NCBI GenBank assembly: GCA_001769125.1
Contig: MEOG01000137.1
Span: forward strand, 1-64,000
DNA: 64,000 nucleotides
Direction: 5' to 3'
Origin: Bacteroidetes bacterium GWF2_35_48
Lineage (GTDB): Bacteria; Bacteroidota; Bacteroidia; Bacteroidales; GWF2-35-48
The notes under the pieces are model-generated. The model was not told the origin of the DNA. It worked only from the letters and a program-made list of their open reading frames with translations, and ran no database searches. Of the stretch, positions 2,764-34,980 are shown one piece after another (within the stretch, counting starts at the first letter, position 1; the number at the start of each line of letters is the position of its first letter). A program made the position numbers and the translations under genes.

Positions 2764-2777
2764 AAATAGAAACATTT

Positions 2778-2823
2778 TAAAAAAGCAGAATGGGCAAACA
2801 CTTTGCCCACTCTGCTTTTTTTT
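2778..2823 (-). terminator. Rho-independent terminator of the 1651-aa gene
   Basis: A strong stem: AGCAGAATGGGCAAA pairs with TTTGCCCACTCTGCT across a 3-nt loop with one internal mismatch. It is flanked by A and T runs on both sides, so it could act in both directions. It lies just beyond the stop codon of the gene at 2826-7781. Confidence 0.8.
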
Positions 2824-2825
2824 GA

Positions 2826-19238: not shown

Positions 19239-19356
19239 TAAGTTTTCCTGTTTTCCCTGTCTTTTTTATTTTTTTCTTCCTCGTTTGAAAAATAAATAGA
19301 AATGAGTTTAATCATAAAGTGAATTGTGATAAAAATGATAAGTATAAATGCCCAGG

Positions 19357-19470
19357 TACTAACAGCACCTAAGTCGCATATCTCACTTATTGAAAACGCT
19401 AGGCTGACGCCATGCGCGTAGGTCTAAGGTGTTCGAAACGTCGGCATAGCTGCAGGCCGTTAGCGTCAAG
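19357..19470 (+). other. Structured cassette-boundary element, copy A
   Basis: It begins TACTAACAGCACC and contains the three conserved blocks CATGCGC (19411), GTCTAAGGT (19422) and CGAAAC (19434), with the same spacing as copy B. The outer stem is ACGCTA (19396-19401) with TAGCGT (19461-19466). An inner small hairpin is CGGC-ATA-GCTG, with one G-U pair in RNA. It has no open frame. It lies between the decayed DUF262-like gene and the XRE-helicase operon. Confidence 0.7.
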
Positions 19471-19540
19471 GCATCTGGAAATCCCGAGTAGATAGATACT
19501 GACATGAAAATTAAGAATCAGATAACAATATTTCTTTAGT

Positions 19541-19672
19541 GCATCGTTGATGCTTCAGTGATTTGCGAGGAATTTATTTTGTTTTTTTCTTCCCTCTTTT
19601 TGCCCTGATGGGCAATTAGGATTAACAGCCGCTTACACACGTTGCACACACCTACCCGTCCGGCAGGCGGGT
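19541..19672. repeat. Series of short hairpins upstream of the XRE gene
   Basis: Three hairpins: GCATC-GTT-GATGC (19541-19553), TTGCCC-TGAT-GGGCAA (19600-19615) and ACCCG/CGGGT around TCCGGCAGG (19654-19672). The last resembles the CCTGCC-type palindromes found at 16.3, 46.6 and 51.7 kb. The rest of the 19471-19850 gap holds nothing I can identify. Confidence 0.5.
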
Positions 19673-19850
19673 CTCAAAAGCCACATAACCAACCGCTAAA
19701 TCTAAGCTTCTGGGAAGAGTGCAACCGACCGAAGGGAGCTCACGAGCACCTATGAAAATAAAAATAATTGAGCGAGTAATTTTGCCATTGCTCAAATTCG
19801 TGGTTAATTAAATGTTCATTACTTTTTATAAAACAAACAAATTTAAATTT

Positions 19851-19858
19851 TACATTTG
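19851..19858 (+). promoter_or_regulatory. -7 box of the XRE-helicase operon
   Basis: TACATTTG matches TAnnTTTG and lies 30 bp before the ATG at 19889. The longer TTG start at 19856 would overlap the promoter, which argues for the ATG. The -33 region is a T-run without a clear TTTG. Confidence 0.55.
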
Positions 19859-19888
19859 ACAATTATTGACAAGCTATATAAAAATGAC

Positions 19889-20176
19889 ATGACTCATTTA
19901 GGAAAAAAAATAAGGGAAATAAGGGAGAAAAAAAAACTTCTTCTCAGGCAGGTTGCAGCTCATCTTGAAGTTGATACTGCATTAACAAGTAAAATAGAAA
20001 CAGGCGAAAGAAAAGCCAGTAAAGAGCAAATACTCAGAATTGCTGAATTTTTGGATACAAATGTAGATGATTTGCTCATTTTATGGCTTGCTGATAAAAT
20101 TGAAACTGCGATTGGCGAAGAAAAAAGGCTAGCACCTGATGCAATGAGTTTTGTAAAAAGAAAAATGAAAAAATGA
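19889..20176 (+). CDS. XRE-family helix-turn-helix regulator
   Basis: A 95-aa protein with an XRE/Cro helix-turn-helix at about residues 3-60 (LGKKIREIREKKKLLLRQVAAHLEVDTALTSKIETGERKAS in part). The C-terminal tail ILWLADKIETAIGEE is characteristic of the small regulators that head restriction or defence operons in Bacteroidota. It is the first gene of an operon with a PLD-SNF2 helicase, a methyltransferase and an ATPase, and is the likely controller of their expression. Its stop codon overlaps the ATG of a 30-aa ORF (ATGA at 20173-20176). Confidence 0.85.
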   Translation: MTHLGKKIREIREKKKLLLRQVAAHLEVDTALTSKIETGERKASKEQILRIAEFLDTNVDDLLILWLADKIETAIGEEKRLAPDAMSFVKRKMKK

Positions 20177-20265
20177 ACCGAGCATATTCGTTAAATAAAC
20201 CAATGGATGAAAATTTTATATGCGAGTTCCATCCGACCTTTAAAAAACAAATTATTTTCGGATGA
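20173..20265 (+). CDS. 30-aa ORF translationally coupled between the regulator and the helicase
   Basis: An ORF of 30 codons starting MNRAYSLNKPMDENF and ending KKQIIFG. Its ATG overlaps the stop of the XRE gene as ATGA (20173-20176), and its own stop overlaps the ATG of the helicase as ATGA (20262-20265). Two such overlaps in a row make chance unlikely. They suggest that ribosomes pass from the regulator through this ORF to the helicase. It may be a coupling leader or a functional micropeptide. I know no homologue. Confidence 0.55.
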   Translation: MNRAYSLNKPMDENFICEFHPTFKKQIIFG

Positions 20266-23200
20266 AACAAGGTTTAAAATTAATTGATAATTCTTCAAAT
20301 GAATATCAACTTGGTAATGTTTTAAAAAGTTTAATTAGTGATAAATCATATACTCAAATTTCTATTGCAACAGGCTATTGGGATTTGCCAGGAATGGTTG
20401 AAATATACGCAGAACTTAAAACATATTTAGAAAGAGAAAATATTACGTTAAGATTACTTTTGGGCGAAGAACCATCAGTAAAAGCTTATCAAGTTAAAAA
20501 CCCAGCAATACAAGACCCTGACTTTCCTGAAAAATATTTAAAAAGAGATTTGGAGGACTTAAAATTAAGAGAAGAATTTCAAAAAGTTGCTGACTTATTA
20601 GGTAAATATCTTAATGTGAACAACGATTCAAAACTGCAAATTAAAGTTTATCGTAAAAATTTTCTTCATGCAAAATGTTACATTTTTGGATGCGATGAAG
20701 AAAACGCTGTTGGAATTATAGGAAGTTCAAATTTTACAAAACAGGGTTTATTTGGAAATCTTGAATTAAATCAATTAGAAGACAATAATGCAACTGTAAA
20801 TTTTGTTAGAAAAAATATTTCTCAACATCCTTCACATCGTATTTGGTTTGAGGAATTGTGGAATGAAAGCGAAGATTGGTCAGGTATTTTTAAAGAAGAA
20901 ATATTACAATTAAGTAAGCATGGAAATTTATGTTTCAGTCCTTATGAAATGTATATTCATGCCTTGTATCGTATATACGGACAAGACTTGCAAGATGAAA
21001 AAGAAGATAAAGTTGGAATAGATGACCCAAATTCAGGGAAACCGCAATTATTGAAATTTCAAATTCAAAATGCAAACAGCATAATTAAAAAATTAGAAAG
21101 ACCTCAGGGTGTTGCAATGCTTTCTGATTCGGTGGGTTTAGGAAAAACATACACTGCTATTAAAGTTGTTGAATATTTTTTCAAAATTAAAAATCAACGG
21201 GTTGTTGTTATTTGCCCTGCTGGTTTAATTTCTCAATGGGAAAAAGCATTTGCAGATTTTAAAATTGAAAACCCTCCAAGAATTTACAGTTTACAAGATG
21301 TAAATAAAATAAATCAGATAAGAGACGATTTAAAAGATATTCCTGTAGGTTTATTTGTATTTGATGAAAGCCACAATTTACGTTCTGCCGGAGGTTCACG
21401 TTTTGATGTTTTTATTAAATGGAGACAAGAAAACGAAAATGCAAAAACCTTGATGCTCACAGCTACGCCTATCAATAATCAATTATCAGATTTAACAAAT
21501 CAGATTATGCTTGGCTCTGGTGGTAATATTTATAAATTGGGCAGATTTTATGACAGAGATAAACAAAAATATTTTACACTCAAAGAAAGACTTGAACTTT
21601 TGCAAACGGAAATGCGTAGGCAAATACGAGAAACCGGAGTAATAAATTTTCAACAAATTAAAGAACAATTAACGCCACTGTTAAACAGATTTATCGTAAG
21701 GCGCACAAGACAGGGCATTGAAAAAGAATATCCCGAAGGACTTGAAATTAATGGTAAATTACAAAAGTTTCCAAAGTCATATCCTGACAATTTAGAATAT
21801 GATGTTTCCAATCAATACAAAACCAAATTACTAAACTTTGCAGCAAAAGATATTTTATTAACAAAGGCTTACAATTACACCATTTCAAGTTTAGCAGATT
21901 TGGAATATTTAGCACATCCTTTAGACTTACTTTCTCATTATATCGAGCGGGAAAAGCCTATTCAATCGTCATTAGAAATTTTATATACAAGCTTGCTTTC
22001 ATTTGGTTTTCCATGCTATCGCTACAATATATATCGCTGGGCTTATTATGGAAGAAAAAGAGGGGCAGATGATTTTAAATTAAATGTGGATGATAACCGT
22101 GAATTGTCAAGACAAATTGGTATTTATGGAATTTTCAGAACTATCTTTTTAAAGCGATTAGAGTCTTCGCTTTACTCAATCAGCCTTTCGGTTAACAGTT
22201 ATGAAAGAAAACTTAAAGACTTTAAAGAAAAATTAGAGAAGTTTAATAAAATAGTTTCAGTTAAAAATTTAACAGCTTTAAATAAAGCCATTGATGAATA
22301 TAATGAACAACTGGCAAATGAGGACGAACTTGATTTTGATATTGATAATTTTGAACAGGGAAATGATGATTTTATTTCTATAAATGCAGATGCAGGAGTG
22401 TTCAATATTCCGCAAATGAAAGCAGATATTGAAAAAGACCTTTCTGTTATCAGCGTTTTAAAAGAACAAATTGATTTGCTGATTAAGAAAGATGATAAAA
22501 TTTTGGTACTTGCAAAAGAGCTGTATAAAAATAATGATAAAAAAGTACTGGTTTTTACTTATTTTGCAGACACGCTTAAATATCTCAAAGATAATTTACC
22601 AATACATGTGCAAAATAGAAACATTGAATTTGCTTTAGGTACAAAAAATGAAATAGAAAATTTTGCTAAAAGATTTGCGCCTATATCAAAAAAATATGAT
22701 TTAAAGCCAGCCGAAAAAGAAATTGATTTTTTAATAGCAACCGATAAACTTTCCGAAGGACAAAATTTACAAGATTGTGGGATAATTATAAATTACGATT
22801 TACATTGGAACCCTGTACGCATGATACAACGTAATGGGCGTATAAATCGTTTAGGCTCGTTGCATGATGAGATTTTTGTTTACAATTTCCGACCAACAGA
22901 ACAATTAGAAAGTTATCTGCAATTAATTAGAAAATTAGAAGATAAAATAAATCTAATTCGTTATACAATTGGCTCTGACCAGTCTGTTTTAGATGAAGAA
23001 CCCATACCACAGGATTTCACGGAAGATTTGTATAGCCGTGATGAAAAGAAGCGTATGGAAGCTTTTCAGAAAATATATGAAAAATCTGAACTTTTGGCTG
23101 CCGAAGATTTATTTATGGACGACCTGAGAGAATTTGACCGCAATGAAATCCTTGAATTAATTTACAAAGAAAAAATTAAAAATCTTCCAAAGGGCAAGTG

Positions 23201-23762
23201 GGGTAAAATTCAAATGAGAAAAGAAGATGAAGAATTTATTCATTTAGCTCATTTAACCGACGATAAAAACGAGGCTGGTTATTTTGTTGCTTTCGATAAA
23301 AATAGAATTGGGGAACTGCTTACAACTACTGAGGGTTTGTTATCTATCAAAGCAACAAGCGAACAAAATAAACGATTTAAAGATGAATTTAAAAACAAGC
23401 CTGAAACAGAAGATTACATTTTAGATTTTATGGCACAATATCAATTTGCTGAAGATGAACACAGCAACAGGTATAATGAACCGCAACGAAATGCAATTAA
23501 TTTTTTAGCGGCTAAAATGCAAGAATATGGTTATCCTGTTGAAGAAATTGAAAAAATATATAATTGTATAATATACTCTCAAAATGCTTATATCAACAAG
23601 CAAAGCATGAAATTAGTAAGGACAGTTAACAGATTAGTCCGACAGCAAAAACATGTTAGCGATGAAATTATAAAACAATTTATCAGTTTGGCACATCAGT
23701 ACAAACCTGATGAAAAGACAGAAAAGGCTCCATTGAATGAATTAGTACAAATTTTTAATTAA
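20262..23762 (+). CDS. SNF2-family helicase with N-terminal phospholipase-D-like nuclease domain
   Basis: A 1166-aa protein. Residues about 1-190 are a PLD-like domain with a single HxK motif (H136, K138 in FLHAKCYIFG) followed by GSSNFT, the pattern of PLD nucleases in restriction systems. SNF2 helicase motifs follow: Walker A near residue 290 (SVGLGKTYTA), DESH near 367, LMLTATP near 403, and motif VI QRNGRINR near 856. The C-terminal 250 residues are of unknown fold. In such systems the helicase translocates on DNA and the PLD domain cuts. It is coupled by ATGA to the upstream micro-ORF and followed after 6 bp by an unknown gene, then by a DNA methyltransferase and an ATPase. It is the likely restriction subunit of a multi-gene anti-phage system. 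It is not a standard type I or III HsdR, since the nuclease is PLD rather than PD-(D/E)XK. Confidence 0.85.
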   Translation: MKQGLKLIDNSSNEYQLGNVLKSLISDKSYTQISIATGYWDLPGMVEIYAELKTYLERENITLRLLLGEEPSVKAYQVKNPAIQDPDFPEKYLKRDLEDLKLREEFQKVADLLGKYLNVNNDSKLQIKVYRKNFLHAKCYIFGCDEENAVGIIGSSNFTKQGLFGNLELNQLEDNNATVNFVRKNISQHPSHRIWFEELWNESEDWSGIFKEEILQLSKHGNLCFSPYEMYIHALYRIYGQDLQDEKEDKVGIDDPNSGKPQLLKFQIQNANSIIKKLERPQGVAMLSDSVGLGKTYTAIKVVEYFFKIKNQRVVVICPAGLISQWEKAFADFKIENPPRIYSLQDVNKINQIRDDLKDIPVGLFVFDESHNLRSAGGSRFDVFIKWRQENENAKTLMLTATPINNQLSDLTNQIMLGSGGNIYKLGRFYDRDKQKYFTLKERLELLQTEMRRQIRETGVINFQQIKEQLTPLLNRFIVRRTRQGIEKEYPEGLEINGKLQKFPKSYPDNLEYDVSNQYKTKLLNFAAKDILLTKAYNYTISSLADLEYLAHPLDLLSHYIEREKPIQSSLEILYTSLLSFGFPCYRYNIYRWAYYGRKRGADDFKLNVDDNRELSRQIGIYGIFRTIFLKRLESSLYSISLSVNSYERKLKDFKEKLEKFNKIVSVKNLTALNKAIDEYNEQLANEDELDFDIDNFEQGNDDFISINADAGVFNIPQMKADIEKDLSVISVLKEQIDLLIKKDDKILVLAKELYKNNDKKVLVFTYFADTLKYLKDNLPIHVQNRNIEFALGTKNEIENFAKRFAPISKKYDLKPAEKEIDFLIATDKLSEGQNLQDCGIIINYDLHWNPVRMIQRNGRINRLGSLHDEIFVYNFRPTEQLESYLQLIRKLEDKINLIRYTIGSDQSVLDEEPIPQDFTEDLYSRDEKKRMEAFQKIYEKSELLAAEDLFMDDLREFDRNEILELIYKEKIKNLPKGKWGKIQMRKEDEEFIHLAHLTDDKNEAGYFVAFDKNRIGELLTTTEGLLSIKATSEQNKRFKDEFKNKPETEDYILDFMAQYQFAEDEHSNRYNEPQRNAINFLAAKMQEYGYPVEEIEKIYNCIIYSQNAYINKQSMKLVRTVNRLVRQQKHVSDEIIKQFISLAHQYKPDEKTEKAPLNELVQIFN

Positions 23763-23768
23763 TCTATT

Positions 23769-24458
23769 ATGTTCAGTAATTTGTCGAAAAAAAATACAAT
23801 TAAGCCATATATACCTGAAGTAAATATAATTAATCAATACAAGCAAATTCGGGCATTAGGGAAAGACCATAATACGAAATTGCTTAAATGTGAGGAATTA
23901 AATTTAGATGTAAAAGGCGCAGGCAAAAAATTAAATATGCTTGAAGGGAATACTCTTGTTTTTGATGAAGAACAAGATATGGATGTCTTAATGGATTATG
24001 CTATGTATGAAATTTACATTGAAAATAAAAACTTTGTTGAGCGATATTATGAACTTGATTTGCCTGAAACAACCGATGAAAATTTAATATTAGAGGCTAA
24101 ACTTGAAGCCTTCACTTCTTTATTTGAAGTTATAAATATTTATCCCGATGAATGTAAAATTGAAATACAAGATATTTTGGAATCTGATAATATTTATCAA
24201 TTTATAGATATTGGTTTTTCTCAAACCGGAAAGATTGGGATGCTTGTATTTACAAGGTTAATTCCTTTTCCTGAATTTTATATTACAGGTGGTGTTTCTT
24301 TTGGTTTTAAAAATGAAAATAAATCAAAATTATTAGCAGGGTACAATTTTTTGAAGTTTAAAAATAACAGTAAAATAATGTCAAACAATAAATACCTGTA
24401 TTTTTTTAATCAAAGTAAAATACTGGGAAATAAAGTTTACACACAGGATATAGAGTAG
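23769..24458 (+). CDS. Unknown protein in the helicase-methyltransferase operon
   Basis: A 229-aa protein that I do not recognise. It is acidic in the middle (residues about 60-135) and has no signal peptide or membrane helix. A motif-like stretch is FIDIGFSQTGKIGMLVFTRLIPF. It begins 6 bp after the helicase stop and is followed by a palindrome-rich gap before the methyltransferase. Its position between the two core subunits suggests a specificity, adaptor or regulatory component of the same system. That is inference. Confidence 0.6.
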   Translation: MFSNLSKKNTIKPYIPEVNIINQYKQIRALGKDHNTKLLKCEELNLDVKGAGKKLNMLEGNTLVFDEEQDMDVLMDYAMYEIYIENKNFVERYYELDLPETTDENLILEAKLEAFTSLFEVINIYPDECKIEIQDILESDNIYQFIDIGFSQTGKIGMLVFTRLIPFPEFYITGGVSFGFKNENKSKLLAGYNFLKFKNNSKIMSNNKYLYFFNQSKILGNKVYTQDIE

Positions 24459-24487
24459 AATCTGATTTGTTAAAAAGCTGTTATCGC

Positions 24488-24580
24488 AATGCGGCTAAAG
24501 CCTTTAAATTTTTTAACCTTAATTACCATCGGCTTAAGCCGATGGTAATTAATAAATAATAGTAAAATGGGCTTTAGCCC
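24488..24580. repeat. REP-like palindrome cluster between the unknown gene and the methyltransferase
   Basis: Three palindromes lie together: GGCTAAAGCC (24493-24502), a perfect 30-bp palindrome at 24521-24550 (half-site AATTACCATCGGCTT) and GGGCTTTAGCCC (24569-24580). The first and third share the GGCTWWAGCC core. They could stabilise or attenuate the polycistronic mRNA. Confidence 0.75.
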
Positions 24581-24606
24581 CATAATAAAAAGTAACAAAG
24601 AAATAA

Positions 24607-27600
24607 ATGAATATACAAGACCTCAATAATAAATTAGACCAACTGGCTCAATCGCAGAGCAGGGAAAATGTAATTGAGTTTGCATATACTTTATTAGAAT
24701 GGATTGGCATTGAACCGACCACTAATAAAACACCTCAGTTGCTTGCGCCTAAAACACAAAAATTAAAAGACTATTTACTGCCTGCGCCTCAAACTGTGCA
24801 ACCCCAGTTATACAGATTGAATGCGGAAAATCAAAATATTCGTGTTCGTTTTGCTGTTTTGAAAAAAATAAAAAAAGAAACTATCAGCCAATTGGTGGAC
24901 AATGACCCCGGCGCTGAAAGTTTTCAAAATACCCCCGATGCAATAAAGGCGATAACAAAGGCTCCTTATTTTTTACATTTTGTTACCACACCTGAATTTA
25001 ACAAACTTGTTTTAGTTTTTAATAATGGAGAGCAAAAGCGAATACTTAATTTTCGCAACAGATTAACCAATACACAATATAATAAAATTATCGAGCAATG
25101 GTCATGTATTGCTTCAAAATCAAAAGCTGAAATAACGGACATATTTTGGAAAAGCCTCGACATTAAAGAAGTAAATAAAGAGTTTTACAAACAGGTTAAA
25201 GAACGCTTTGATGCATTGGTAGGAATTGCAAAAGCCGCAAAAGTTGAAGCAAGCGAAAATCAGGTAAAACAATTTGCAGTTCGTTTGATTGGACGTTATA
25301 TTTTTTGCTGGTTTTTGAAAGAAAAAGGGATTATCCCATTACGATTAATTTGTAGCAGTACAATAAAAAAAGAATCAAATTATTTTCATCGGTTTTTATT
25401 GAAATTATTTTTTAATACACTAAATACAAAAGTACAGGAAAGACCAGTAATATTAGGTAATAACGGTGAATTGGAAAATGAAAAATTATTTGAAAAAATT
25501 CCTTACCTGAATGGCGGTTTATTCGACGAAAATGAAGAAGATAGGTTATTCTGTTATTTAGAACTCGACGATTGGCTAATTCCATTTGTTGACGTTTTGG
25601 AAAACTATGATTTTACTGTAGATGAAAGTTCAGGAAATTATCAGCAAATTGCGGTTGACCCTGAAATGTTAGGCCGGATTTTTGAAAATTTATTGGCAAG
25701 CCAGAACGAAGAAACCGAAAAAATTGCAAACCAGCGTAAAGCTTTTGGTGCATTCTATACACCTCGCGAGATTGTAGACTACATGGTAAATGAAAGCATT
25801 AAAGCCTATTTGCAAACATCGTGGGAGAAGCATATTGAACAAGCAAAAAATGAAAAAATAAAAGAAGAAGAAAAACACAAAATTGAAAAAGCACTTGCCC
25901 CTCTTTTTGCATCACAACTCAATGCCGATGGATTAAAAAAAGATGATAAAGTATTGTTGGATAAATTTCTTTCAGAAATAAAAATATTAGACCCTGCCTG
26001 TGGTTCCGGCGCTTTCCCGATGGGCGTGTTGCTGAAATTAAAAGAACTGCGGGAAATGCTGGGATTTTACCCCAGCGCATATCAACTGAAATTAAATATA
26101 CTGAGCAATAATATTTATGGCGTTGACATAATGCCTATGGCTACAGAAATTGCTAGGCTCAGGTCGTGGCTTAGCCTTGTATTGGATTCCGATTATAAAC
26201 CCGAAGCACGAAACAATAATTTTGGTATTGATGCACTGCCCAATCTTGATTTTAAATTTGTGTGTGCAAACAGCTTAATTGATTTAGGACTTGATGCTTT
26301 TATTCAAACTAATCATGCGAAATTTTACACGACACTAATTAATAGTCTTAAAGAATTGGAAGATCTGCGCAAACAATTTTTTCTGCCCGATGTTTCGCAA
26401 AACGATAAAGCAGAGCTAAAAAAACAATACCTGCAACAAAGAGATAAAGTAGTAAAAAATATTGAAGCCGATAGCGAGCCTGTTTTAAAAATCATAGCAG
26501 AAAAAATTAAAAACTGGAATCCTTTTGACGACAGTTTTACCTCACCATTTTTCAGCCCCACATGGATGTTTGGTATTGATAAAGGTTTTGATGTGGTGAT
26601 TGGAAATCCGCCGTATGTGCAAATACAGAATTTTAGCGGACAAGCTATTCAGAAATTATTAGAAGAGCAAAACTTTGAGAGTTTTAATAAAACAGGAGAC
26701 CTTTATTGTCTGTTTTACGAACGTGCTTACCAATTATTAAAAACTAATGGCACTCTTGTTTTTATAACTTCAAATAAATGGATGCGCGCCAAATATGGAG
26801 AAAAACTACGTAGCTTTTTCTCTGCAAAAACAAATCCGCTCGTGCTTATAGACTTTGGCGGATACGAAGTATTTGATGCTGTTACAGTGGACACAAATAT
26901 TTTATTTTTTTCAAAAACGATAATCAACAATAAAAATTTAAAAGCCTGTACGGTTGGAAAAGGTTTTACCGAAACCACTGATATTGCAGCTTACCTAATT
27001 AAAAACGGAATTAATCTAAACAACCTCTCTCAGGAAAGCTGGGTGGTTTCTTCTAACGATGAATACCATATTAAAAAGCGCATAGAAGAAATGGGAATTC
27101 CAATTAAAGATTGGGATATTTCAATTTACAGAGGCATCTTAACCGGTTTGAACGAAGCCTTTATTATTGATGGAAAAAAGAAAGACGAACTTATTGCACT
27201 TGACCCAAAAAATGCTGAGGTTATTAAACCTGTTCTGCGGGGTAGGGATATAAAAAAATATAAAGCAGAGTTTGCTAATTTATGGTTGATAAATACACAT
27301 AACGGATATAAAACAAAAAATGGCGTAAAAATTAACCGTATTGATGTTGAAAAAAATTATCCTGAAATTTATAAACATTTGCTCACATATAAAGACAAGC
27401 TTGAACCTCGCGCAGATCAGGGCGACCATTGGACAAACCTCAGAAACTGTGCATATATTGAAGAGTTTGAAAAAGAGAAAATTGTTTATAACGATATTTG
27501 TCAAAAATTAACTTTTGCAAAAAGTGATGCAGGTGTATATTTTAATAATACCGTATATTTTATATCTAATAATAAATATATAAAATTTTTGCTGGCTCTG

Positions 27601-28053
27601 TTAAACTCAAATACTATAGATTGGTATTACAGAACATTATCTGTACAATTAGGTAAAAAAGCAGTCAGAATGTTCAGTATTTATGTTGAGAAAATACCTA
27701 TTCCAAAGATCTCTTTTGAAAGTCAACACCCCTTTGAAATATTAGTTGACTGTATTCTTTTTGCCAAAGAGCAAAACATGGAAACAGAGGCTGAATTATT
27801 GGAGTCTGTGGTTGATGGCTTGGTATATGACCTTTATTTTGAAGAAGAAATGAAGCAAATGCATTGTTATATTACCACTCGTATGACAGAAGTTTTAAAG
27901 CCATTTAAGGCCGACGATACAGATGATTTTAAAAGAGAATATGTGAAAAGTTTATACAATTTTTGTAAAAATGACAAAGTGGTTTATCATGCCCATATTC
28001 ACAGCCGTACAGTAAAAATAGTAAAAATTATAAATCAAACTAAACATGACTGA
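24607..28053 (+). CDS. Eco57I-type DNA adenine methyltransferase (restriction-modification)
   Basis: A 1148-aa class I SAM-dependent methyltransferase. Motif I DPACGSGAFPMGVL is at about residue 462 and the catalytic motif IV NPPYVQIQ at about 668, preceded by RKAFGAFYTPREIVDYMV (motif X region). The C-terminal half (about 830-1148) should hold target recognition. The N-terminal 400 residues are helical; I see no clear PD-(D/E)XK nuclease, so cleavage probably comes from the PLD-SNF2 partner. It would methylate adenine to mark self DNA, like PglX-type or type IIG enzymes. It overlaps the next gene by 8 bp. The length and architecture are normal for the family. Confidence 0.88.
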   Translation: MNIQDLNNKLDQLAQSQSRENVIEFAYTLLEWIGIEPTTNKTPQLLAPKTQKLKDYLLPAPQTVQPQLYRLNAENQNIRVRFAVLKKIKKETISQLVDNDPGAESFQNTPDAIKAITKAPYFLHFVTTPEFNKLVLVFNNGEQKRILNFRNRLTNTQYNKIIEQWSCIASKSKAEITDIFWKSLDIKEVNKEFYKQVKERFDALVGIAKAAKVEASENQVKQFAVRLIGRYIFCWFLKEKGIIPLRLICSSTIKKESNYFHRFLLKLFFNTLNTKVQERPVILGNNGELENEKLFEKIPYLNGGLFDENEEDRLFCYLELDDWLIPFVDVLENYDFTVDESSGNYQQIAVDPEMLGRIFENLLASQNEETEKIANQRKAFGAFYTPREIVDYMVNESIKAYLQTSWEKHIEQAKNEKIKEEEKHKIEKALAPLFASQLNADGLKKDDKVLLDKFLSEIKILDPACGSGAFPMGVLLKLKELREMLGFYPSAYQLKLNILSNNIYGVDIMPMATEIARLRSWLSLVLDSDYKPEARNNNFGIDALPNLDFKFVCANSLIDLGLDAFIQTNHAKFYTTLINSLKELEDLRKQFFLPDVSQNDKAELKKQYLQQRDKVVKNIEADSEPVLKIIAEKIKNWNPFDDSFTSPFFSPTWMFGIDKGFDVVIGNPPYVQIQNFSGQAIQKLLEEQNFESFNKTGDLYCLFYERAYQLLKTNGTLVFITSNKWMRAKYGEKLRSFFSAKTNPLVLIDFGGYEVFDAVTVDTNILFFSKTIINNKNLKACTVGKGFTETTDIAAYLIKNGINLNNLSQESWVVSSNDEYHIKKRIEEMGIPIKDWDISIYRGILTGLNEAFIIDGKKKDELIALDPKNAEVIKPVLRGRDIKKYKAEFANLWLINTHNGYKTKNGVKINRIDVEKNYPEIYKHLLTYKDKLEPRADQGDHWTNLRNCAYIEEFEKEKIVYNDICQKLTFAKSDAGVYFNNTVYFISNNKYIKFLLALLNSNTIDWYYRTLSVQLGKKAVRMFSIYVEKIPIPKISFESQHPFEILVDCILFAKEQNMETEAELLESVVDGLVYDLYFEEEMKQMHCYITTRMTEVLKPFKADDTDDFKREYVKSLYNFCKNDKVVYHAHIHSRTVKIVKIINQTKHD

Positions 28054-29422
28054 CGAAAGGTTAAACACTCTGAAAAATATTGTTTCTGATCCGGAAAGTA
28101 ACTACGGACAAATTCGGATAACAAAAATTAAAATATCGGATTACCGTTTTTTCTGTGGCGAATACGAATTCGATTTCAATGGGAAAAATGTGCTGATGTA
28201 TGGCGAGAATGGCAGTGGGAAAAGTTCTGTTTATAAAGCGCTGGGCTTGCTTGCAAGTAAAAAGTATAGCGAAATTACCGAACACGTAAATATATTTTCT
28301 GAAGGTAAGTCGCCTTTAGTTGAGTTTAGTTTTTCCAATGGAAGAGACCTTATAATACATAGCGATCTTGATGAATTACCCAAAGGAATGGAATTTATTG
28401 AAGGTTTATCGGTTTTCTCCCCCATGCTCGATTACAAAAAATTATTGAAAGTGCATTTTTCAATGAATGAGAAAGATGAAAACATCAATATTTATGATAT
28501 GCTCCGTATTCTTTTTAAAGATTACCCATGTAAAGAAAAACAAACCCTTTCAGAGATTACTGATCCAATTGAATATTTTGACACTTTAAAAAGTATTGTT
28601 AATTCTGAATTAATTGTAAATTCTAACGAAATTCTGAATTTTTTTGAGGCAGATGTTAAAATCCTGTCGTTTGGGTTTCAACAAAAATTTGCATCAGATG
28701 GTCGTGGAGTTGAACCTGTAATTAATATTAAAGTTGAATTTAAAGATAATGAATTAACGAGCTATCATAATTTTCTCAACGAGGCCAGACTTACATCATT
28801 AGCCATTTCCATATATTTTTCCGCTATTCTTCGTTTGTTGGATACTTTAAACAAAGAATGCCTGAAAATACTTGTACTTGATGATTTGCTCATTAGTCTA
28901 GATATGAGTAATCGTTTGAAATTACTGGAAATACTTAAAAATAAATTTAACAATTTTCAAATTTTCTTTTTTACCCACGACAAAGAATCATTTGATCTAT
29001 TCAGAGATAAAATGGACTGGGAAAAATTTGAACTTTACCTTCATGAAATTGATAATATACCCAAACCTATAATTAAAAAAGGTGCTTCTGAAATTGATAG
29101 AGCGAAAGAATTTTTTGCACAAAAAGAATATGAAGCATGTGCTTTATTTTTAAGAAAAGGCTTTGAAAAACTTTTAAAAAATTATTTACCACGGAGAGAG
29201 CAACTCGACAAAAATTTTAATGAACTGGATTTATCAGGCTTAATAGGAAAAGCTATTTTTATTTGTTCTTTTGACGATACTTTACAAATCTTGAAATCAT
29301 TAAACAGTAATCGGAAACATTTGTTGAATCCGCTTTGCCACTCCAATCCTAAGACCATTCACGCAAATGAAATAAAAGAAGCTATCGAAAATTTGGAGAA
29401 ACTTAACGAATTACTAAAATAG
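28046..29422 (+). CDS. AAA/SMC-like ATPase of the defence operon
   Basis: A 458-aa protein with an ABC/RecF-type N-terminal half. It begins with IKISDYRFFCGEYEFDF and has the Walker A GENGSGKSS (residues 53-61). A degenerate signature (EARLTSLAISIYFSAIL) precedes Walker B and D-loop at about residues 275-290 (LKILVLDDLLISLD). There is little coiled coil between them, so it is shorter than SMC or RecN proteins. The C-terminal third (about 340-458) is helical, with RAKEFFAQKEYEACALFLRKGFE, reminiscent of HEPN-like domains in RloC/PrrC-type proteins. It overlaps the methyltransferase gene by 8 bp, so it belongs to the same operon. A sensor or effector role is plausible but not shown. Confidence 0.75.
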   Translation: MTDERLNTLKNIVSDPESNYGQIRITKIKISDYRFFCGEYEFDFNGKNVLMYGENGSGKSSVYKALGLLASKKYSEITEHVNIFSEGKSPLVEFSFSNGRDLIIHSDLDELPKGMEFIEGLSVFSPMLDYKKLLKVHFSMNEKDENINIYDMLRILFKDYPCKEKQTLSEITDPIEYFDTLKSIVNSELIVNSNEILNFFEADVKILSFGFQQKFASDGRGVEPVINIKVEFKDNELTSYHNFLNEARLTSLAISIYFSAILRLLDTLNKECLKILVLDDLLISLDMSNRLKLLEILKNKFNNFQIFFFTHDKESFDLFRDKMDWEKFELYLHEIDNIPKPIIKKGASEIDRAKEFFAQKEYEACALFLRKGFEKLLKNYLPRREQLDKNFNELDLSGLIGKAIFICSFDDTLQILKSLNSNRKHLLNPLCHSNPKTIHANEIKEAIENLEKLNELLK

Positions 29423-29427
29423 ATATT

Positions 29428-29596
29428 ATGGTTTACAAACTCTATGAACTCACTTACGAAGAGGTAAAAATAGTAGAGCCTGCCTTCGGTTTATCAGAAA
29501 AAGAATACAATGAGTACAAAATTCAATAAACCTCCGGCAGGTAAACCGGAATTTGCGTTGAGTGAGGAGGAGTATAAGAAATTTGAGACAAAATAA
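29428..29596 (+). pseudogene. Remnant of a methyltransferase C-terminal tail
   Basis: The short frame MVYKLYELTYEEVKIVEP resembles the final tail of Eco57I/type IIG methyltransferases (YxLYxLTxEExxIVE). It stops at 29527. An overlapping +1 frame (29510-29596) continues with FALSEEEYKKFE, like a frameshifted or duplicated end of the same tail. The first 53 bp recur with three changes at 30707-30759. This is debris of another R-M gene, not a working gene. Confidence 0.5.
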
Positions 29597-29609
29597 AAAA
29601 ACAAATATT

Positions 29610-29831
29610 ATGAGTAATATTAAATTATTTGAAAGTAAAAAAGTTCGTACTCATTGGGATGTTTAAAATGAACAATGGTTTTTTTCAGTAATAGATGTAA
29701 TAGAAATACTCACGGAAAGTCCTCGACCACGAAAGTACTGGAGTGCCTTAAAATCAAAATTACTAGCAGAGGGAAGTGAAGTGTCCCTCAAATTGGGACA
29801 GTTGAAAATGCAAGCCGAAGATGGCAAATAA
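29610..29831 (+). pseudogene. Truncated duplicate of the Bro-N gene
   Basis: The frame begins MSNIKLFESKKVRTHWDV, meets TAA at 29664-29666, then continues NEQWFFSVIDVIEILTESP and ends QAEDGK-stop. It parallels residues 1-74 of the intact gene at 29858 (MSNIKLFENRQIRSVWDEAEEKWYFSIIDVV in two parts). It is a diverged, inactivated N-terminal copy placed directly before the intact gene. Confidence 0.75.
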
Positions 29832-29857
29832 AACAACATATTCAAATACATGCCTTT

Positions 29858-30682
29858 ATGAGCAATATAAAACTATTTGAGAACAGGCAAATCCGTTCTG
29901 TATGGGACGAAGCAGAAGAAAAATGGTATTTTTCCATTATAGATGTAGTAGCTATACTTACCGGCAGTCCAGATCCAAGAAATTATTGGAAGGTGCTGAA
30001 ACACCGGCTGTCAAAGGAGGGAAATGAAACGGTTACAAATTGTAACCAGTTGAAATTGGTAGCAGAAGATGGCAAGTTACGAGAAACAGATGTTGGAGAT
30101 GTTGAACAACTTTTTCGTTTAATCCAATCTATTCCATCGCCCAAAGCCGAACCCTTTAAACAATGGCTTGCCAAAGTTGGTTACGAACGTATGCAGGAAA
30201 TAGCCAATCCGGAACAAAGCCTTGATAGAGCACGTGAAAACTGGCAAAAACTCGGGCGCAGCGAAAAATGGGTACAACAGCGCATGACAGGGCAGGAAAC
30301 CCGAAATAAACTTACCGATTATTGGAAAGATGCAGGTATAAAAGAAAATGATGAATTTGCATTACTCACAAATATTATTCATCAGGAATGGACAGGGCTT
30401 ACCGTAAAAAAACACAAAGATTTAAAAGGGTTAAAATCACAAAACCTAAGAGACCACATGAGTGAAGCTGAGTTGATTTTTACTGCCCTTGCAGAACTTT
30501 CGACAAGACAAATAGCAGAAACCGAAGAAGCAAAAGGCTTGCAACAAAATGCCAAAGCGAGTAAAAAAGGAGGAGCAGTAGCCAAAAATGCTCGTAAAGA
30601 ATTAGAAAGCAAAACAGGTAAAAGTGTTGTAACAGGCGAAAATTTTTTACCACCCAAAAAAGAAAACAAAAAATTAAAATAA
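29858..30682 (+). CDS. Bro-N domain (phage antirepressor-like) protein
   Basis: A 274-aa protein with an N-terminal Bro-N domain (about residues 5-110: VWDEAEEKWYFSIIDVVAILT.., ETDVGDVEQLFRLIQSIPSPKAEPFKQWLAKV). A helical C-terminal half follows (LTDYWKDAGIKENDEFALLTNIIHQEWTG.., LRDHMSEAELIFTALAELST) and the tail is lysine-rich. Bro-N proteins bind DNA and act as antirepressors in phages; this chromosomal type is frequent beside restriction-modification loci in Bacteroidota. It is preceded by its own broken copy and flanked on both sides by the 53-bp methyltransferase-tail repeat. Confidence 0.8.
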   Translation: MSNIKLFENRQIRSVWDEAEEKWYFSIIDVVAILTGSPDPRNYWKVLKHRLSKEGNETVTNCNQLKLVAEDGKLRETDVGDVEQLFRLIQSIPSPKAEPFKQWLAKVGYERMQEIANPEQSLDRARENWQKLGRSEKWVQQRMTGQETRNKLTDYWKDAGIKENDEFALLTNIIHQEWTGLTVKKHKDLKGLKSQNLRDHMSEAELIFTALAELSTRQIAETEEAKGLQQNAKASKKGGAVAKNARKELESKTGKSVVTGENFLPPKKENKKLK

Positions 30683-30706
30683 GACTTAGAAAAAGAAATA
30701 GACATA

Positions 30707-30952
30707 ATGGTTTACAAACTCTATGAACTCACTTACGAAGAAGTAAAAATAGTTGAACCATCGCAGCAGGCACACACATTGTCAAGCCACACAGGCAATC
30801 TCACAAACCAAAGCCTGCCAAAGAGTGTGCCTGCACAGCCCTATTTTGCCCTATGGGGCAATTTGTCCACCGCACAAAAAAACAAAATAAATTGTGCTTC
30901 GATTCAACAGCAGTGGTTGATAAACAGGAATGATTATAAAGTAATATTATGA
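30707..30952 (+). pseudogene. Second methyltransferase-tail remnant fused to palindromic DNA
   Basis: The first 18 codons (MVYKLYELTYEEVKIVEP) repeat the tail at 29428. The frame then runs on through unrelated palindromic sequence: GCAGGCACAC (30766-30775) pairs with GTGTGCCTGC (30825-30834). The 81-aa frame is therefore a chance extension. The end lies 26 bp before structured element B. Confidence 0.5.
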
Positions 30953-30977
30953 AAAGGGTAATAGTAAAACGCCCAGA

Positions 30978-31096
30978 ACGCTAACAAAGGGCGTAGCACA
31001 TTTCCCCCCCCCCATGATAACGCTAAAGCCCTACGTGCATGCGCATAGGTCTAAGGTAAGCGAAACTGTGCTAGCGCAGGTACCGTTGGAGGTAAT
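30978..31096 (+). other. Structured cassette-boundary element, copy B
   Basis: It begins GCTAACAAAGGGCGTAGC and contains a C10 run (31004-31013), AACGCTA (31019-31025), then CATGCGC (31038), GTCTAAGGT (31049) and CGAAAC (31061) with the same spacing as copy A. The central hairpin is CTGTG-CTAG-CGCAG, with one G-U pair where copy C has G-C. AAGGTA (31053) pairs with TACC(G)TT (31081). The right arm partner of AACGCTA is degenerate here. It lies between the defence block and the TPR-SpoIIE gene. Confidence 0.75.
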
Positions 31097-31127
31097 ATGA
31101 CAAAAAAAATGTAACAAAAACTAAATT

Positions 31128-33329
31128 ATGATATCCAATAATTCTAAAACAGGATTGACTATTATTTTAATAATGATAAGTTTCATTATTAATGCTCAAA
31201 ATAAAATAATTAAAGAAAAACACACCCGAAAGATTGATTCACTCTTAAATATTCTGCATTGTGCCAGTCATGATACCATAAAAGTCAGAACATTTGCTTT
31301 GTTATGTGATGAGTACCGTAACAATGACCCTGAAAAAGCCATGCAATACGGGAAACAAGGTTTGTTCCTTGCACAAAAAATAGCTTATAAAAGAGGAACA
31401 GCTATTTGTTATAATAATATCGGGAATGTTCACAACATTCAGGGTAGTTATCTTGATGCGATAGAATACTATCAAAAGTCAATAGATATCAATGAAGAAC
31501 TCGGGGATAAAAAAAGTGTAGCACACTGTTACGGTAATATAGGAATTATTTATAAAGAACAGGGTAATTACCCCAAAGCAATAGAATATTATCAACAATC
31601 TCTAAAAAAAGATGAAGAACTCGGTGACAAGAAGGGCATGGCTCAATGTTTTGGCAATATAGGAATTGTCTATTATAATCAGGGTAATTTTTCCAAAGCG
31701 ATAGAATACATGCAGAAGGATATGGAAATAGCTGAAGAACTAAGAGATAATAAAGGGATGGCATCATGCTATAATAATTTAGGGGTTATATATATTGAAC
31801 AAAAAAAATATTCAAAAGCTTTGGAATATTATCAAATGTCCCTAAAAATCAGTGAAAAGTCTGGGGATAAAAAAGGGATAGCCCAATGTTATGGCAATTT
31901 CGGAATTGCTTATTACGCACAAGGTAATTACCCCAATGCCCTTAAATACTACCAACAAGCGTTAGCAATTTTTGAAGAGTTAGGGAATAAAGGGGGAATT
32001 ACTATCACATTGGGGAATATTGCATCATCATATAATAAACTAAAAAAATATAACAATGCTATTGAATATGCAGAAAAAAGTCTGAAAATTGCTAAAGAAA
32101 TAGGCTCGCTTGATGATGAAATGATTGCTTTTGAAAATTTGGCAGAAGCATACGACAGTTTGGGCAATACAAAAAAAGAACTGATTTATTATAAACTGTT
32201 TACTATGGCAAAAGACAGCTTGTTCAATGAAGAAAAGCATAAACAAATTACTAAAATGGAAGCTATATACCAGACAGAGAAAAAACAAAAAGAAATCGAA
32301 CTTAAAAATACACAACTTGCCAAAAAAGAAGTTGAAGTTAAACAACAAAAAACTCAAAAATTTGCATTTATAGGTAGTTTTATTTTAATGTTGATATTAT
32401 CAGTAGTGATTTTTAAAAGTTACAGGGACAAGAAAAAAGCAAATATCCTGTTAACTGAACAGAAACACGAAATAGAAGAAAAGAACGAAGAACTCAATCA
32501 GCAAAATGCTGAATTAGCGGCACAAAGAGATTATATTGCACAAATACATGAAAATATTACTGAAAGTATCCGGTATGCTGAACGGATACAAAAAGCTGTA
32601 CTACCCGATGAACAATATATTAAAAACAGAATTCAAAATGATTTTTTTATCTTATTTAAACCAAAAGATATTGTTTCTGGAGATTTTTATTTTGTAGAAC
32701 AGCGGAAAAATAAGTTATTAATTGCAGTAGCAGATTGCACGGGTCATGGAGTCCCCGGGGCTTTTATGAGTATGTTAGGGATTTCATTTTTAAATGAAAT
32801 AATTGCTAAAGAAGGAGTACAATCTGCAAGCCATGTTTTAGATGAATTAAGAAATTATGTAATTCATTCATTACAACAAAAAGGAATTATGGGTGAACAG
32901 AAAGATGGAATGGATATAGCTTTTGTTGCTTTAAATATTAATACAAATGAACTCCAGTTTGCAGGTGCAAACAATCCTATATATCTTATACATACAAACA
33001 CTAATAATGAATTAACTGAAATCAAAGGAGATAAAATGCCTGTAGCAATTCACGATAGTATGAATAATTTTACTAATCAAATTATACAATTACAAAAAGG
33101 AGATATTTTTTATTTAATGAGTGATGGTTACAAAGACCAATTTGGAGGTTCAAAAGGTAAAAAATTCTTATCAAATAATCTTAAACAATTACTATGTGAA
33201 CATTGCATCAAATCTATGAACGAACAAAAAGAAGTTCTCGATAATACTATTGAAAACTGGAAAACTGGTTATGAAATTAAATATGAACAGACAGATGATA
33301 TTACAGTTTTTGGCATTAAAATAAATTGA
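31128..33329 (+). CDS. TPR protein with SpoIIE-type PP2C phosphatase domain
   Basis: A 733-aa signalling protein. The N-terminal hydrophobic segment (about residues 5-23) acts as signal peptide or anchor. TPR repeats occupy about 60-370 (A.CYNNIG.VYxxQGNYxKAIEYYQxSLKIxEELGDKKG pattern). A transmembrane helix is at about 410-430 (FAFIGSFILMLILSVVIF), followed by a coiled coil (about 430-480) and a SpoIIE/PP2C phosphatase domain (about 500-733) with VSGDFYFVE, ADCTGHGVPGAFMS and LMSDGYKDQFGG. TPRs face the periplasm and the phosphatase the cytoplasm; such proteins dephosphorylate partner-switch proteins of the SpoIIAA/SiaC type. A SiaB/SiaC pair is encoded at 57 kb. This gene stands alone between elements B and C, as a single-gene cassette would. 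Confidence 0.9.
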   Translation: MISNNSKTGLTIILIMISFIINAQNKIIKEKHTRKIDSLLNILHCASHDTIKVRTFALLCDEYRNNDPEKAMQYGKQGLFLAQKIAYKRGTAICYNNIGNVHNIQGSYLDAIEYYQKSIDINEELGDKKSVAHCYGNIGIIYKEQGNYPKAIEYYQQSLKKDEELGDKKGMAQCFGNIGIVYYNQGNFSKAIEYMQKDMEIAEELRDNKGMASCYNNLGVIYIEQKKYSKALEYYQMSLKISEKSGDKKGIAQCYGNFGIAYYAQGNYPNALKYYQQALAIFEELGNKGGITITLGNIASSYNKLKKYNNAIEYAEKSLKIAKEIGSLDDEMIAFENLAEAYDSLGNTKKELIYYKLFTMAKDSLFNEEKHKQITKMEAIYQTEKKQKEIELKNTQLAKKEVEVKQQKTQKFAFIGSFILMLILSVVIFKSYRDKKKANILLTEQKHEIEEKNEELNQQNAELAAQRDYIAQIHENITESIRYAERIQKAVLPDEQYIKNRIQNDFFILFKPKDIVSGDFYFVEQRKNKLLIAVADCTGHGVPGAFMSMLGISFLNEIIAKEGVQSASHVLDELRNYVIHSLQQKGIMGEQKDGMDIAFVALNINTNELQFAGANNPIYLIHTNTNNELTEIKGDKMPVAIHDSMNNFTNQIIQLQKGDIFYLMSDGYKDQFGGSKGKKFLSNNLKQLLCEHCIKSMNEQKEVLDNTIENWKTGYEIKYEQTDDITVFGIKIN

Positions 33330-33345
33330 TTACAATCCATACTAT

Positions 33346-33470
33346 CTATAACATTGCGTGTAGCGACCATTCTTTGCTGATAAATGCTATCCTGACGGCA
33401 TGCGCATTAAGTCTAAGGTTAGCGAAACTGCGCCAACGCAGAAACCTTTAGCATTAAATTGGTAACAAAT
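33346..33470 (+). other. Structured cassette-boundary element, copy C
   Basis: The best-preserved structure of the three copies. Outer stem: AATGCTA (33383-33389) pairs perfectly with TAGCATT (33449-33455). Second stem: AAGGTT (33415-33420) with AACCTT (33443-33448). Central hairpin: CTGCG-CCAA-CGCAG (33428-33441). The conserved blocks CATGCGC, GTCTAAGGT and CGAAAC are present with one extra base after CATGCGC. The left end is TATAACATTGCGTGTAGC and the right end GGTAACAAAT. It lies between the TPR-SpoIIE gene and the core gene xseA. Confidence 0.8.
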
Positions 33471-33576: not shown

Positions 33577-34980
33577 ATGATGAAAGAAAAAACCCCAATA
33601 TCGCTCTATGAACTGAACCTGCTGATAAAAGGAAAAATCTCACAGGCTTTTCCTGAAAAAGTATGGATTGTTGCAGAAATCAGCGATCTTACTCTGAACC
33701 GGAACGGTCACTGTTATCTTGACCTTATTCAAAAAGATACTATTTCGAATCAAACCATTGCCCGCTCACGGGCTACAATCTGGAGCTATACCTTTCGTTC
33801 CCTGCGCCCTTTTTTTGAAAGCAGCACAGGACGTGAGATTTCAGCCGGACTTAAAATAATGGTTCTTTGTTCAGTTGAATTTCATGAGGTTTATGGATTC
33901 AGTTTAAATATTTTAGATATTGATCCTACCTACACTTTGGGCGATATTGAAAAAAAGAAAAAAGAAATCATTGCAAAGCTTCAGGCAGAAGGCATTTTCA
34001 ACATGAATAAGGAGCTGGAATTTCCGGCTGTTCCACAAAAAATTGCCATCATCTCCTCTCCTACTGCTGCGGGCTACGAAGATTTTATCAAGCAGCTCCA
34101 CAACAATCCATCAGCATATAAATTTTATACAAAACTTTTTCCCGCCACAATGCAGGGCGATGAAACTGAAACCAGCATTATTGCGGCACTTGAAAAAATT
34201 TATGCGTATGAATATTTTTTCGATGTGGTGGTCATTATCCGTGGCGGAGGTGCTAAAGCTGATCTCAATTCGTTCGACACATACAACCTTGCTTATCATA
34301 TAACTCAGTTTCCGTTGCCGGTAATTACAGGAATTGGACACGAACGCGATGATACAATTACAGATATGGTGGCGCACACAAAATGTAAAACACCTACTGC
34401 TGTAGCCGAATTTCTGATTAATGAAGTTACGGAATTTGAGATGCAGCTCGAAGAACTAAAAAATTTATTTACGGAAACAATTACAGAGCAAATCAAGGAT
34501 CATAAACAAAAAATTGAGAGTTTGTCTTATTCGTTCTTACCTCTTGTTCAAAATCTGATATTTCAGAAAAAGAACAAACAGGATATTCTGCAATTGCGCT
34601 TTATCAGCAATGTTCAGAATGTTATTGAAAACTCGAAAGCGAAACTTACAGGTATTTCTGCTAGTCTGTATCAAAACATAGCTTTTTACAAAACAATCAA
34701 CAATCAAAAAATAGAAACTTACAGAAAAATGTGCTTCCGAAGCTGTGAAAATTATATCAATTCAGGAAAACACAAAATAGAAATGCTCGAAATAAAAAAC
34801 AAAAGCCACGATCCGTATGTGATATTGAAAAAAGGATATTCCATCACAAGAAAAAACGGTAAAATTCTGAAAAGCATTGCAGATATTAACGAGGGAGACA
34901 CATTGGAAAATATTCTTGCAAATGGAAAAATAATCAGTACGGTTAAAACTAAAACCCCTGCAAATGATTCAACAAATTGA
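33577..34980 (+). CDS. xseA: Exodeoxyribonuclease VII large subunit
   Basis: A 467-aa protein with the N-terminal OB-fold (about residues 5-115; SLYELNLLIKGKI..VWIVAEISDL) and the catalytic exonuclease VII domain (about 135-300). Conserved motifs are IISSPTAAGYEDF, RGGGAKADLNSFDTYNLA and GIGHERDDTITDMVAH..KTPTAVAEFLI. A coiled-coil region and a short C-terminal segment (YVILKKGYSITRKNGK) follow. With XseB it degrades single-stranded DNA to short oligonucleotides. The small subunit gene xseB is not next to it; yjbQ overlaps its 3' end by 17 bp instead. It marks the return to core genome after the accessory island. Confidence 0.95.
   Translation: MMKEKTPISLYELNLLIKGKISQAFPEKVWIVAEISDLTLNRNGHCYLDLIQKDTISNQTIARSRATIWSYTFRSLRPFFESSTGREISAGLKIMVLCSVEFHEVYGFSLNILDIDPTYTLGDIEKKKKEIIAKLQAEGIFNMNKELEFPAVPQKIAIISSPTAAGYEDFIKQLHNNPSAYKFYTKLFPATMQGDETETSIIAALEKIYAYEYFFDVVVIIRGGGAKADLNSFDTYNLAYHITQFPLPVITGIGHERDDTITDMVAHTKCKTPTAVAEFLINEVTEFEMQLEELKNLFTETITEQIKDHKQKIESLSYSFLPLVQNLIFQKKNKQDILQLRFISNVQNVIENSKAKLTGISASLYQNIAFYKTINNQKIETYRKMCFRSCENYINSGKHKIEMLEIKNKSHDPYVILKKGYSITRKNGKILKSIADINEGDTLENILANGKIISTVKTKTPANDSTN

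Follow-up and report, generated by a model that had tools for sequence, protein, structure and literature searches.

Repeated attC-like hairpins separate gene cassettes in a Bacteroidetes genome: a probable integron-like system with a non-IntI recombinase

We have analysed a 64,000-nt stretch of DNA from Bacteroidetes bacterium GWF2_35_48, referred to here as the window (contig MEOG01000137.1, our C137:1-64000, from an assembly of 5.98 Mb in 142 contigs), and observed that three repeated elements in it, A, B and C, belong to a class of sites that separates gene cassettes with cassette-specific inverted-repeat ends. Very probably, A, B and C are attC-like sites of an integron-like cassette system that relies on a recombinase other than IntI, a system whose activity we infer from sequence. 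Many of the approximately 70 sites of this class in the genome bound intervals whose genes mostly follow the direction of the site.

The three elements were described, with their letters quoted, in an earlier note on this DNA, and they are present in the sequence as given there: a search of the window for the motif GTCTAAGGTWAGCGAAAC, tolerating as many as 3 mismatches, returned 3 matches against the 0.07 expected from shuffling. The span assigned to element C was too narrow, leaving out the 5' arm (33345-33382) of the site as we fitted it. The note had taken the elements for a conserved fold that acts either as single-stranded DNA, in a recombination site, or as RNA. As described below, the first of these is now favoured by the cassette-specific ends, by the presence of a recombinase with an attI-like site, by a bottom-strand polarity and by linkage to recombinase genes elsewhere.

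The conserved hairpin and its strand polarity

With the pattern GTCTAAGGTNNNCGAAAC and at most 1 mismatch we found 25 matches genome-wide, and none with the reversed pattern used as control. A scan with the GATGGNATAA motif was too unspecific, its 106 matches on the two strands comparing with 34 for the reversed control. Twenty-five full-length copies were aligned by sequence only, and this alignment, A1, was the basis of the covariance model R1. Full length was required, copies truncated at contig ends being excluded, and four candidates (L060_8189, L063_6586, L051_5330 and L061_3015; one each false, very divergent, fused and mosaic) were left out before counting. R1 gave 70 matches at E ≤ 0.01 in the genome itself, 72 at E ≤ 0.001 in the fetched contigs, a count that includes truncated contig-end copies, and matches in 5 of the 59 other genomes searched.

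The fold proposed in the earlier note consisted of 3 stems (an outer stem, a second stem and a central hairpin), and the base differences among A, B and C were offered as compensatory changes within them. Across the 25 full copies these stems form pairs in 60.2% of cells against a shuffled mean of 58.8%, and their covariation in A1, 0.049, is at the shuffled level (0.046 ± 0.007, with 169 of 500 shuffles as high); the differences among A, B and C are therefore not compensatory for a conserved stem. Selection on a fold was borne out, but by a different hairpin on the same 25 copies, a long one that runs from TAAC to GTTA. In A1 this hairpin has 91.7% of its cells paired against 72.9% after shuffling, a percentage biased in its favour since the hairpin was drawn from the same sequences, as well as 136 cells changed on both sides against 40.0 in shuffles, and a covariation of 0.488 against 0.157 ± 0.012, which none of 500 shuffles attained. 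Displacing the pairing partner by one to three columns lowered the covariation to 0.034-0.125, and in helix 2 changes on both sides were observed in 9 of 10 pairs. The genome-wide covariation test suggested in the earlier note was thus strongly positive for the long TAAC-GTTA hairpin and negative for the stems proposed. Switching between two competing stems, also proposed there, found no support, and the segment GTCTAAGGT, said to be fixed, is so in the 25 copies except for its last base; R1 matches in relatives keep parts of it only.

The 2 strands of a site differ in predicted stability. With DNA folding parameters, the bottom strand was the more stable one in 44 of the 49 sites of this genome (p = 2e-8), with -21.6 kcal/mol for the bottom against -19.3 kcal/mol for the top strand, whereas control windows showed no strand difference (-7.9 versus -7.8 kcal/mol). 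At two places where the top strand has a nearly invariant A x C mismatch, the bottom strand has a G.T pair, and in other genomes the bottom strand folded better in 45 of 53 sites. According to the accessible text of PMC4792948, attC sites recombine on their bottom strand with the crossover point at 5'-AAC-3', and are recognised solely as folded single strands. The bottom-strand preference thus gives the sites described here the same polarity as integron attC sites.

A second reading of these data is an RNA with a conserved structure (leader, riboswitch or small RNA) that recurs in front of genes, and copies that covary and lie 5' of genes of the same direction are consistent with it. Yet the more stable strand in those 44 of 49 copies is the one opposite to the direction of reading, and the mismatches of the sense strand are the G.T pairs of the other. 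Rfam covariance models gave no match at gathering scores in the window, and on a contig with 8 sites (C61) gave only matches far below gathering scores. Moreover, the breakpoints described below are those of a cassette rather than of a transcript, and cassette-specific ends and GTTA junctions would be unexpected for an RNA, a reading that we consider very unlikely.

Cassettes between the sites

When flanks were aligned, similarity among copies went on outside the sites; on the left it extended as far as TAAC, and on the right it began at GTTA. We took as cassettes the 39 complete intervals between neighbouring sites of the same direction, and compared the first bases of each with the reverse complement of its last bases. 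The 2 ends of one cassette matched with a mean score of 7.81 (39 cassettes), against 3.42 (sd 1.17) for the ends of other cassettes and 3.81 for the two sides of one site (49 sites); when cassette ends were permuted, none of 2000 permutations reached the observed value, the highest being 4.33. A well-preserved cassette starts with 5'-GTTA-N5-(AA or CA)-N5, with a bubble of two or three bases, and ends with the reverse complement of the N5 blocks of its start, followed by TAAC. As the N5 blocks of start and end are complementary, a circle joining both ends would make one long hairpin. Sites modelled in this circular form had a stability of -31.4 kcal/mol, compared with -24.7 kcal/mol for sites in the array, the circle being the more stable in 28 of 31 cases. 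Possibly, the paired arms originated through selection for folding of the circle; alternatively, they may derive from copying across a hairpin.

The cassettes of this genome range from 165 to 16,655 bp in length, with a median of 2,253 bp, and ORFs of at least 80 aa in the 39 cassettes run along the direction of the sites in 112 cases and against it in 12. Twenty cargo proteins were scanned, and among these were two caspase-domain proteins, a GmrSD restriction enzyme, a reverse transcriptase, a PAS histidine kinase, a TPR-SpoIIE protein and secreted proteins with Por secretion tails. At L098, a reverse transcriptase ORF (2212-3504; RVT_1, E = 4e-37) was observed within a cassette.

These observations bear on another possibility, that the elements are palindromes of the REP/BIME or MITE-like kind which a Y1 (RAYT/IS200) or DDE transposase has moved, the intervening genes being there by chance. 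The elements are indeed palindromic and multicopy, and a search for transposases of the Y1 class found them at 10 places in the genome; however, none of those 10 places is on an element-bearing contig, the genes between sites have matching ends specific to their interval, and linkage to a recombinase was seen again in other genomes. We regard this origin as extremely improbable.

Classical integron exchange carries the core of a site along with the upstream cassette. Among 16 pairs of sites with similar upstream sequence (at least 85%, reaching the site), which are not mutually independent, the core was kept (≥0.94) in 7 and different (≤0.80) in 9; a rule by which the core always travels with its upstream cassette fails in those 9 pairs, and the result counts against an integron-like reading. 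Hairpin cores seem to have been exchanged at both boundaries, and our guess is that a recombinase without the IntI insert may also act at the other boundary.

The features of the window that surround sites A, B and C are collected in Table 1. All three sites look decayed. Their R1 scores compare with 123.7 bits for the best copy, and in site B a run of C replaces that part of the left arm which would pair with GCGAAA. The ends of the cassette between A and B have just 8 complementary bases in common (GTTAGCGT; end score 4.5), and those of the cassette between B and C are imperfectly complementary (score 6.0). The window cassettes thus fit the end rule weakly, which counts against the cassette reading. 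The start of the cassette that ends at site A was looked for and not found. A cassette similar to B-C, with a TPR-SpoIIE gene, is present on contig C10 (801 bp aligned, 76%). We also observed a 64-nt repeat (92%; window positions 29417-29480 and 30696-30759) at both ends of a segment with the Bro-N gene and, before it, a second and broken copy. In our reading, the stretch is an old array made up of an 11.5-kb defence cassette and a TPR-SpoIIE cassette, and xseA, which follows, is chromosome past the last site. The array of the window and the recombinase gene are on different contigs.

Table 1. Sites, cassettes and cargo genes in the window (coordinates are those of the window)
Feature	Coordinates	Strand	Remarks
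Site A, attC-like hairpin	19356..19466	+	R1 87.1 bits
Site A boxes	19360-19363; 19459-19462		R''-like TAAC; R'-like GTTA
Cassette A-B	19459..30985	+	11,527 bp; cargo a defence-type cluster
Cargo A-B: PLD + SNF2-type helicase, 1166 aa	20262..23762	+	PADLOC C3a139 HKD+Snf2; DrmD-like
Cargo A-B: type IIG / Eco57I-like restriction-methyltransferase, 1148 aa	24607..28053	+	
Cargo A-B: SMC/AAA-type ATPase, 458 aa	28046..29422	+	AbiLi-like match, weak
Cargo A-B: Bro-N protein, 274 aa	29858..30682	+	PADLOC PDC-S13
Site B, attC-like	30978..31092	+	R1 71.6 bits
Site B boxes	30982-30985; from 31085		TAAC; GTTG
Cassette B-C	31085..33352	+	2,268 bp; one gene, same orientation as sites
Cargo B-C: TPR + SpoIIE phosphatase protein, 733 aa	31128..33329	+	
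Site C, attC-like	33345..33454	+	~110 nt; R1 65.5 bits; element C of the earlier note plus its missing 5' arm
Site C boxes	33349-33352; 33447-33450		TAAC; R' = TTTA, not GTTA (G lost)
xseA, exonuclease VII large subunit	33577..34980	+	

Elsewhere in the genome, three cassette starts (on contigs C84, C63 and C122) are preceded not by a hairpin but by an attI-like sequence, with a consensus near ACGG(G)TTT..GATGGWATAA-N4/5-GTTA and the junction before GTTA. Of the three contigs, C84 alone has a recombinase, encoded by a gene for a 476-aa tyrosine recombinase, and the cassette start lies ~390 bp to the 3' side of it. This start matches, at 95 of 95 bp, the one that follows a hairpin site on another contig (C130:89), and the sequences before the 2 junctions are unrelated, which is what one cassette inserted at two kinds of site would be predicted to leave. 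Both contigs end inside the cassette, so that breakage of the assembly at repeats is part of this picture.

The recombinase and its relatives in other genomes

The recombinase encoded on C84 matched XerA in sequence searches (NF040815, 195.9 bits, below the cut-off of 220; PDB 4a8e, E = 3e-37). Its score against the integron integrase model TIGR02249 was 169.5 bits, below the cut-off of 265, with profile positions 183-247 unmatched. The alignment to PDB 2a3v skips the IntI insert, and the protein is without the ~41-residue insert of integron integrases. Among the enzymes with an FEG motif that are described below, the spacing between KG..R and HxLRH is 62-69 residues at 37 of 39 loci (2 not measurable), and it is 106-107 in 12 of 13 IntI sequences (1 not measurable). 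In a tree of 66 rows the 13 IntI rows form one clade (100/100); a further sequence, L264, was left out of these rows, its tree position and spacing of 73 showing it to be non-IntI. The FEG-motif enzymes lie outside that clade and form no single clean clade (4 changes), and two further Xer-type genes, on contigs C25 and C115, are found on a separate branch. Two of these observations count against an integron-like reading: the recombinase is without an insert that is held necessary for IntI activity, and the FEG-motif enzymes are not one clean clade.

A classical integron or CALIN served by an ordinary IntI would have the same AAC/GTT boundaries, bottom-strand polarity, attI-like site and same-direction cassettes, but nothing in the genome exceeds the TIGR02249 cut-off for a canonical IntI, and the recombinase that is present has the shorter spacing (65 residues against 106-107) of an enzyme without the insert and is placed apart from the clade of 13 IntI rows. 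We give this reading little credence. In a sample of the phylum, an IntI match over the cut-off was found in 84 of 296 genomes, and among the same-class genomes listed G096 alone has a canonical IntI over the cut-off.

The nearest solved folds to the catalytic part are the integron integrase 2a3v and XerA 5hxy. In an AlphaFold model of the relative from Aquiflexum (pLDDT 85.9), the N-terminal extension is predicted to consist of two small alpha/beta repeats. The N-terminal part matched Pfam HARP at 15.8 bits, below the cut-off of 25, in 1 of 7 fragments scanned, and PDB 4o66 weakly (29% over 58 columns, E = 0.11); weak rows for XPB and MutS domains were also obtained (Z about 5-6.4), and fold searches with this part gave no match at E ≤ 0.001. 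The weak HARP, XPB and MutS rows hint that this part, itself weakly HARP/XPB-DRD-like, may act on DNA that is forked or mismatched.

Relatives of the recombinase at E < 1e-40 were found at 23 places in 21 of the 60 genomes searched, its own included. Their 3' ends lie less than 1 kb from a contig end at 16 of the 23 places and their 5' ends at 1, a crowding that is expected when a repeat array follows the gene. We then used an alignment of 19 relatives (A4) for a scan of contigs, which returned 591 candidates. We retained 80 loci; at the 78 with a readable protein, 39 had the FEG motif and the other 39 were taken as controls. At the FEG loci, 50 hairpin sites were found in 192.5 kb to the 3' side of the gene and 7 in 305.6 kb to the 5' side (binomial, 2e-14). 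The control loci provided a background of 6 sites in 251.6 kb and 16 in 236.8 kb of flanks, some of them near genuine integrons. At least one 3' site was present at 19 of the 39 FEG loci, and many of the remaining loci end soon past the gene.

Twenty of these loci were examined for cassette starts. At 19 of them, the interval between the recombinase and the first site contained a start complementary to the left flank of that site (run of at least 5), L151 being the sole locus of the 20 with no matching cassette start, and in 12 of the 20 the first cassette start lies within 400 bp 3' of the recombinase. The threshold of the site scanner, normally 13, was lowered to 11.5 for a test of neighbouring sites in named genomes, where 46 neighbouring pairs scored 5.76 against 3.37 when permuted (maximum 3.90 of 1000 permutations), and 22 of the 46 scored 6.5 or more. 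Carriers include Aquiflexum, Winogradskyella, Seonamhaeicola, Rufibacter, Flavobacterium, Algoriphagus and Algibacter, among others. The recombinase family is also present on plasmids of Chryseobacterium and Rufibacter tibetensis, with the sites mostly 3' there too.

Some further observations were made on these relatives. On the Chryseobacterium plasmid (L268), one 140-nt site is present three times, and one cassette of ~33 bp has matching ends and no gene (positions 17195-17228, 15133, 17228 and 19609). Plasmids of Klebsiella, Aeromonas and Acinetobacter have recombinases 41-50% identical to the family (H10-H20), one of which is named TnpF. Also, the length of the sites varies among relatives (L200, L205, L072 and L073), some being short (55-82 nt, resembling classical attC sites) and others ~125 nt long with an inner domain.

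Putative mechanism and relation to known systems

In the integron-like system that we propose, the bottom strand of a site would become single-stranded and fold, and the recombinase would cut the folded site at the AAC/GTT of the R' box. The cut site would then be joined to a double-stranded attI-like site or to a second folded site, and the cassette would enter or leave as a circle. The cassette-specific arms would allow the site of a free circle to fold better than the same site in an array. We lean, with some reserve, towards a broader proposal, that this is a second and phylum-wide kind of integron, in which a XerA-like recombinase with HARP-like N-terminal domains takes the place of the IntI insert in dealing with folded single-stranded sites, and in which the arms pair only in the circle, a tag of stability by which circles would be marked to be inserted and array sites to be kept. 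If this is true, such a kind would have been missed until now because integron searches demand the IntI domain.

Integrons are thought to rely on a single family of enzymes that has a special domain, and few classical integrons are found in Bacteroidia. If cassette arrays throughout the phylum are run by an enzyme lacking that domain, a large set of mobile genes would have gone uncounted, among them restriction, caspase-like, secreted and sensory genes. How an ordinary double-strand recombinase came to work on single strands would, if the proposal is true, become testable by comparing the two solutions, and the cassette-specific arms provide a simple sequence rule for finding cassettes where no site is known.

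Searches of the literature on integrons and cassettes in Bacteroidota, with preprints and most subscription papers outside their coverage, did not find this system. Smyshlyaev et al. 2021 (PMC8138268) treat an integron-like subgroup of tyrosine recombinases, and in the part of that text available no Bacteroidota cassette system was found described. The available sections of the IntegronFinder 2.0 paper (PMC9024848) report hardly any integrons in Bacteroidetes; those integrons are from the same phylum, but were found by way of IntI and attC models.

By sequence, the closest known enzymes are of the XerA/Xer type (NF040815, 4a8e, 5hxy), with which the present recombinase has in common the shorter spacing of catalytic motifs and the lack of an IntI insert, and from which it differs in its N-terminal extension and in the cassette arrays at its 3' side. 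Xer dimer resolution, however, involves one dif-like double-stranded site per chromosome, and we find ~70 hairpin sites; nor do we find the linkage of Y1 transposases to palindromes that is the mark of REP/RAYT systems.

With integrons the system has in common a folded bottom-strand site with AAC/GTT crossover letters, a putative insertion point of attI type beside a tyrosine recombinase gene, and tandem cassettes that mostly have one direction, with one cassette start found in two contexts. The differences are several. The recombinase has no IntI-specific insert, which the portion of PMC4792948 available ties to a specialised single-strand pathway, and lies outside the IntI clade. The array is to the 3' side of the recombinase gene, although in archaea, too, attI sites follow intI on its downstream side, as stated in the accessible portion of PMC9668308. 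Pairing reaches ~15 bp into each cassette, through arms that are specific to the cassette and enclose a fixed bubble. Cassettes reach a length of 16.7 kb, and cores are often exchanged. As judged from these comparisons of sequence, the system is integron-like in its probable working, and is not an integron by its defining enzyme.
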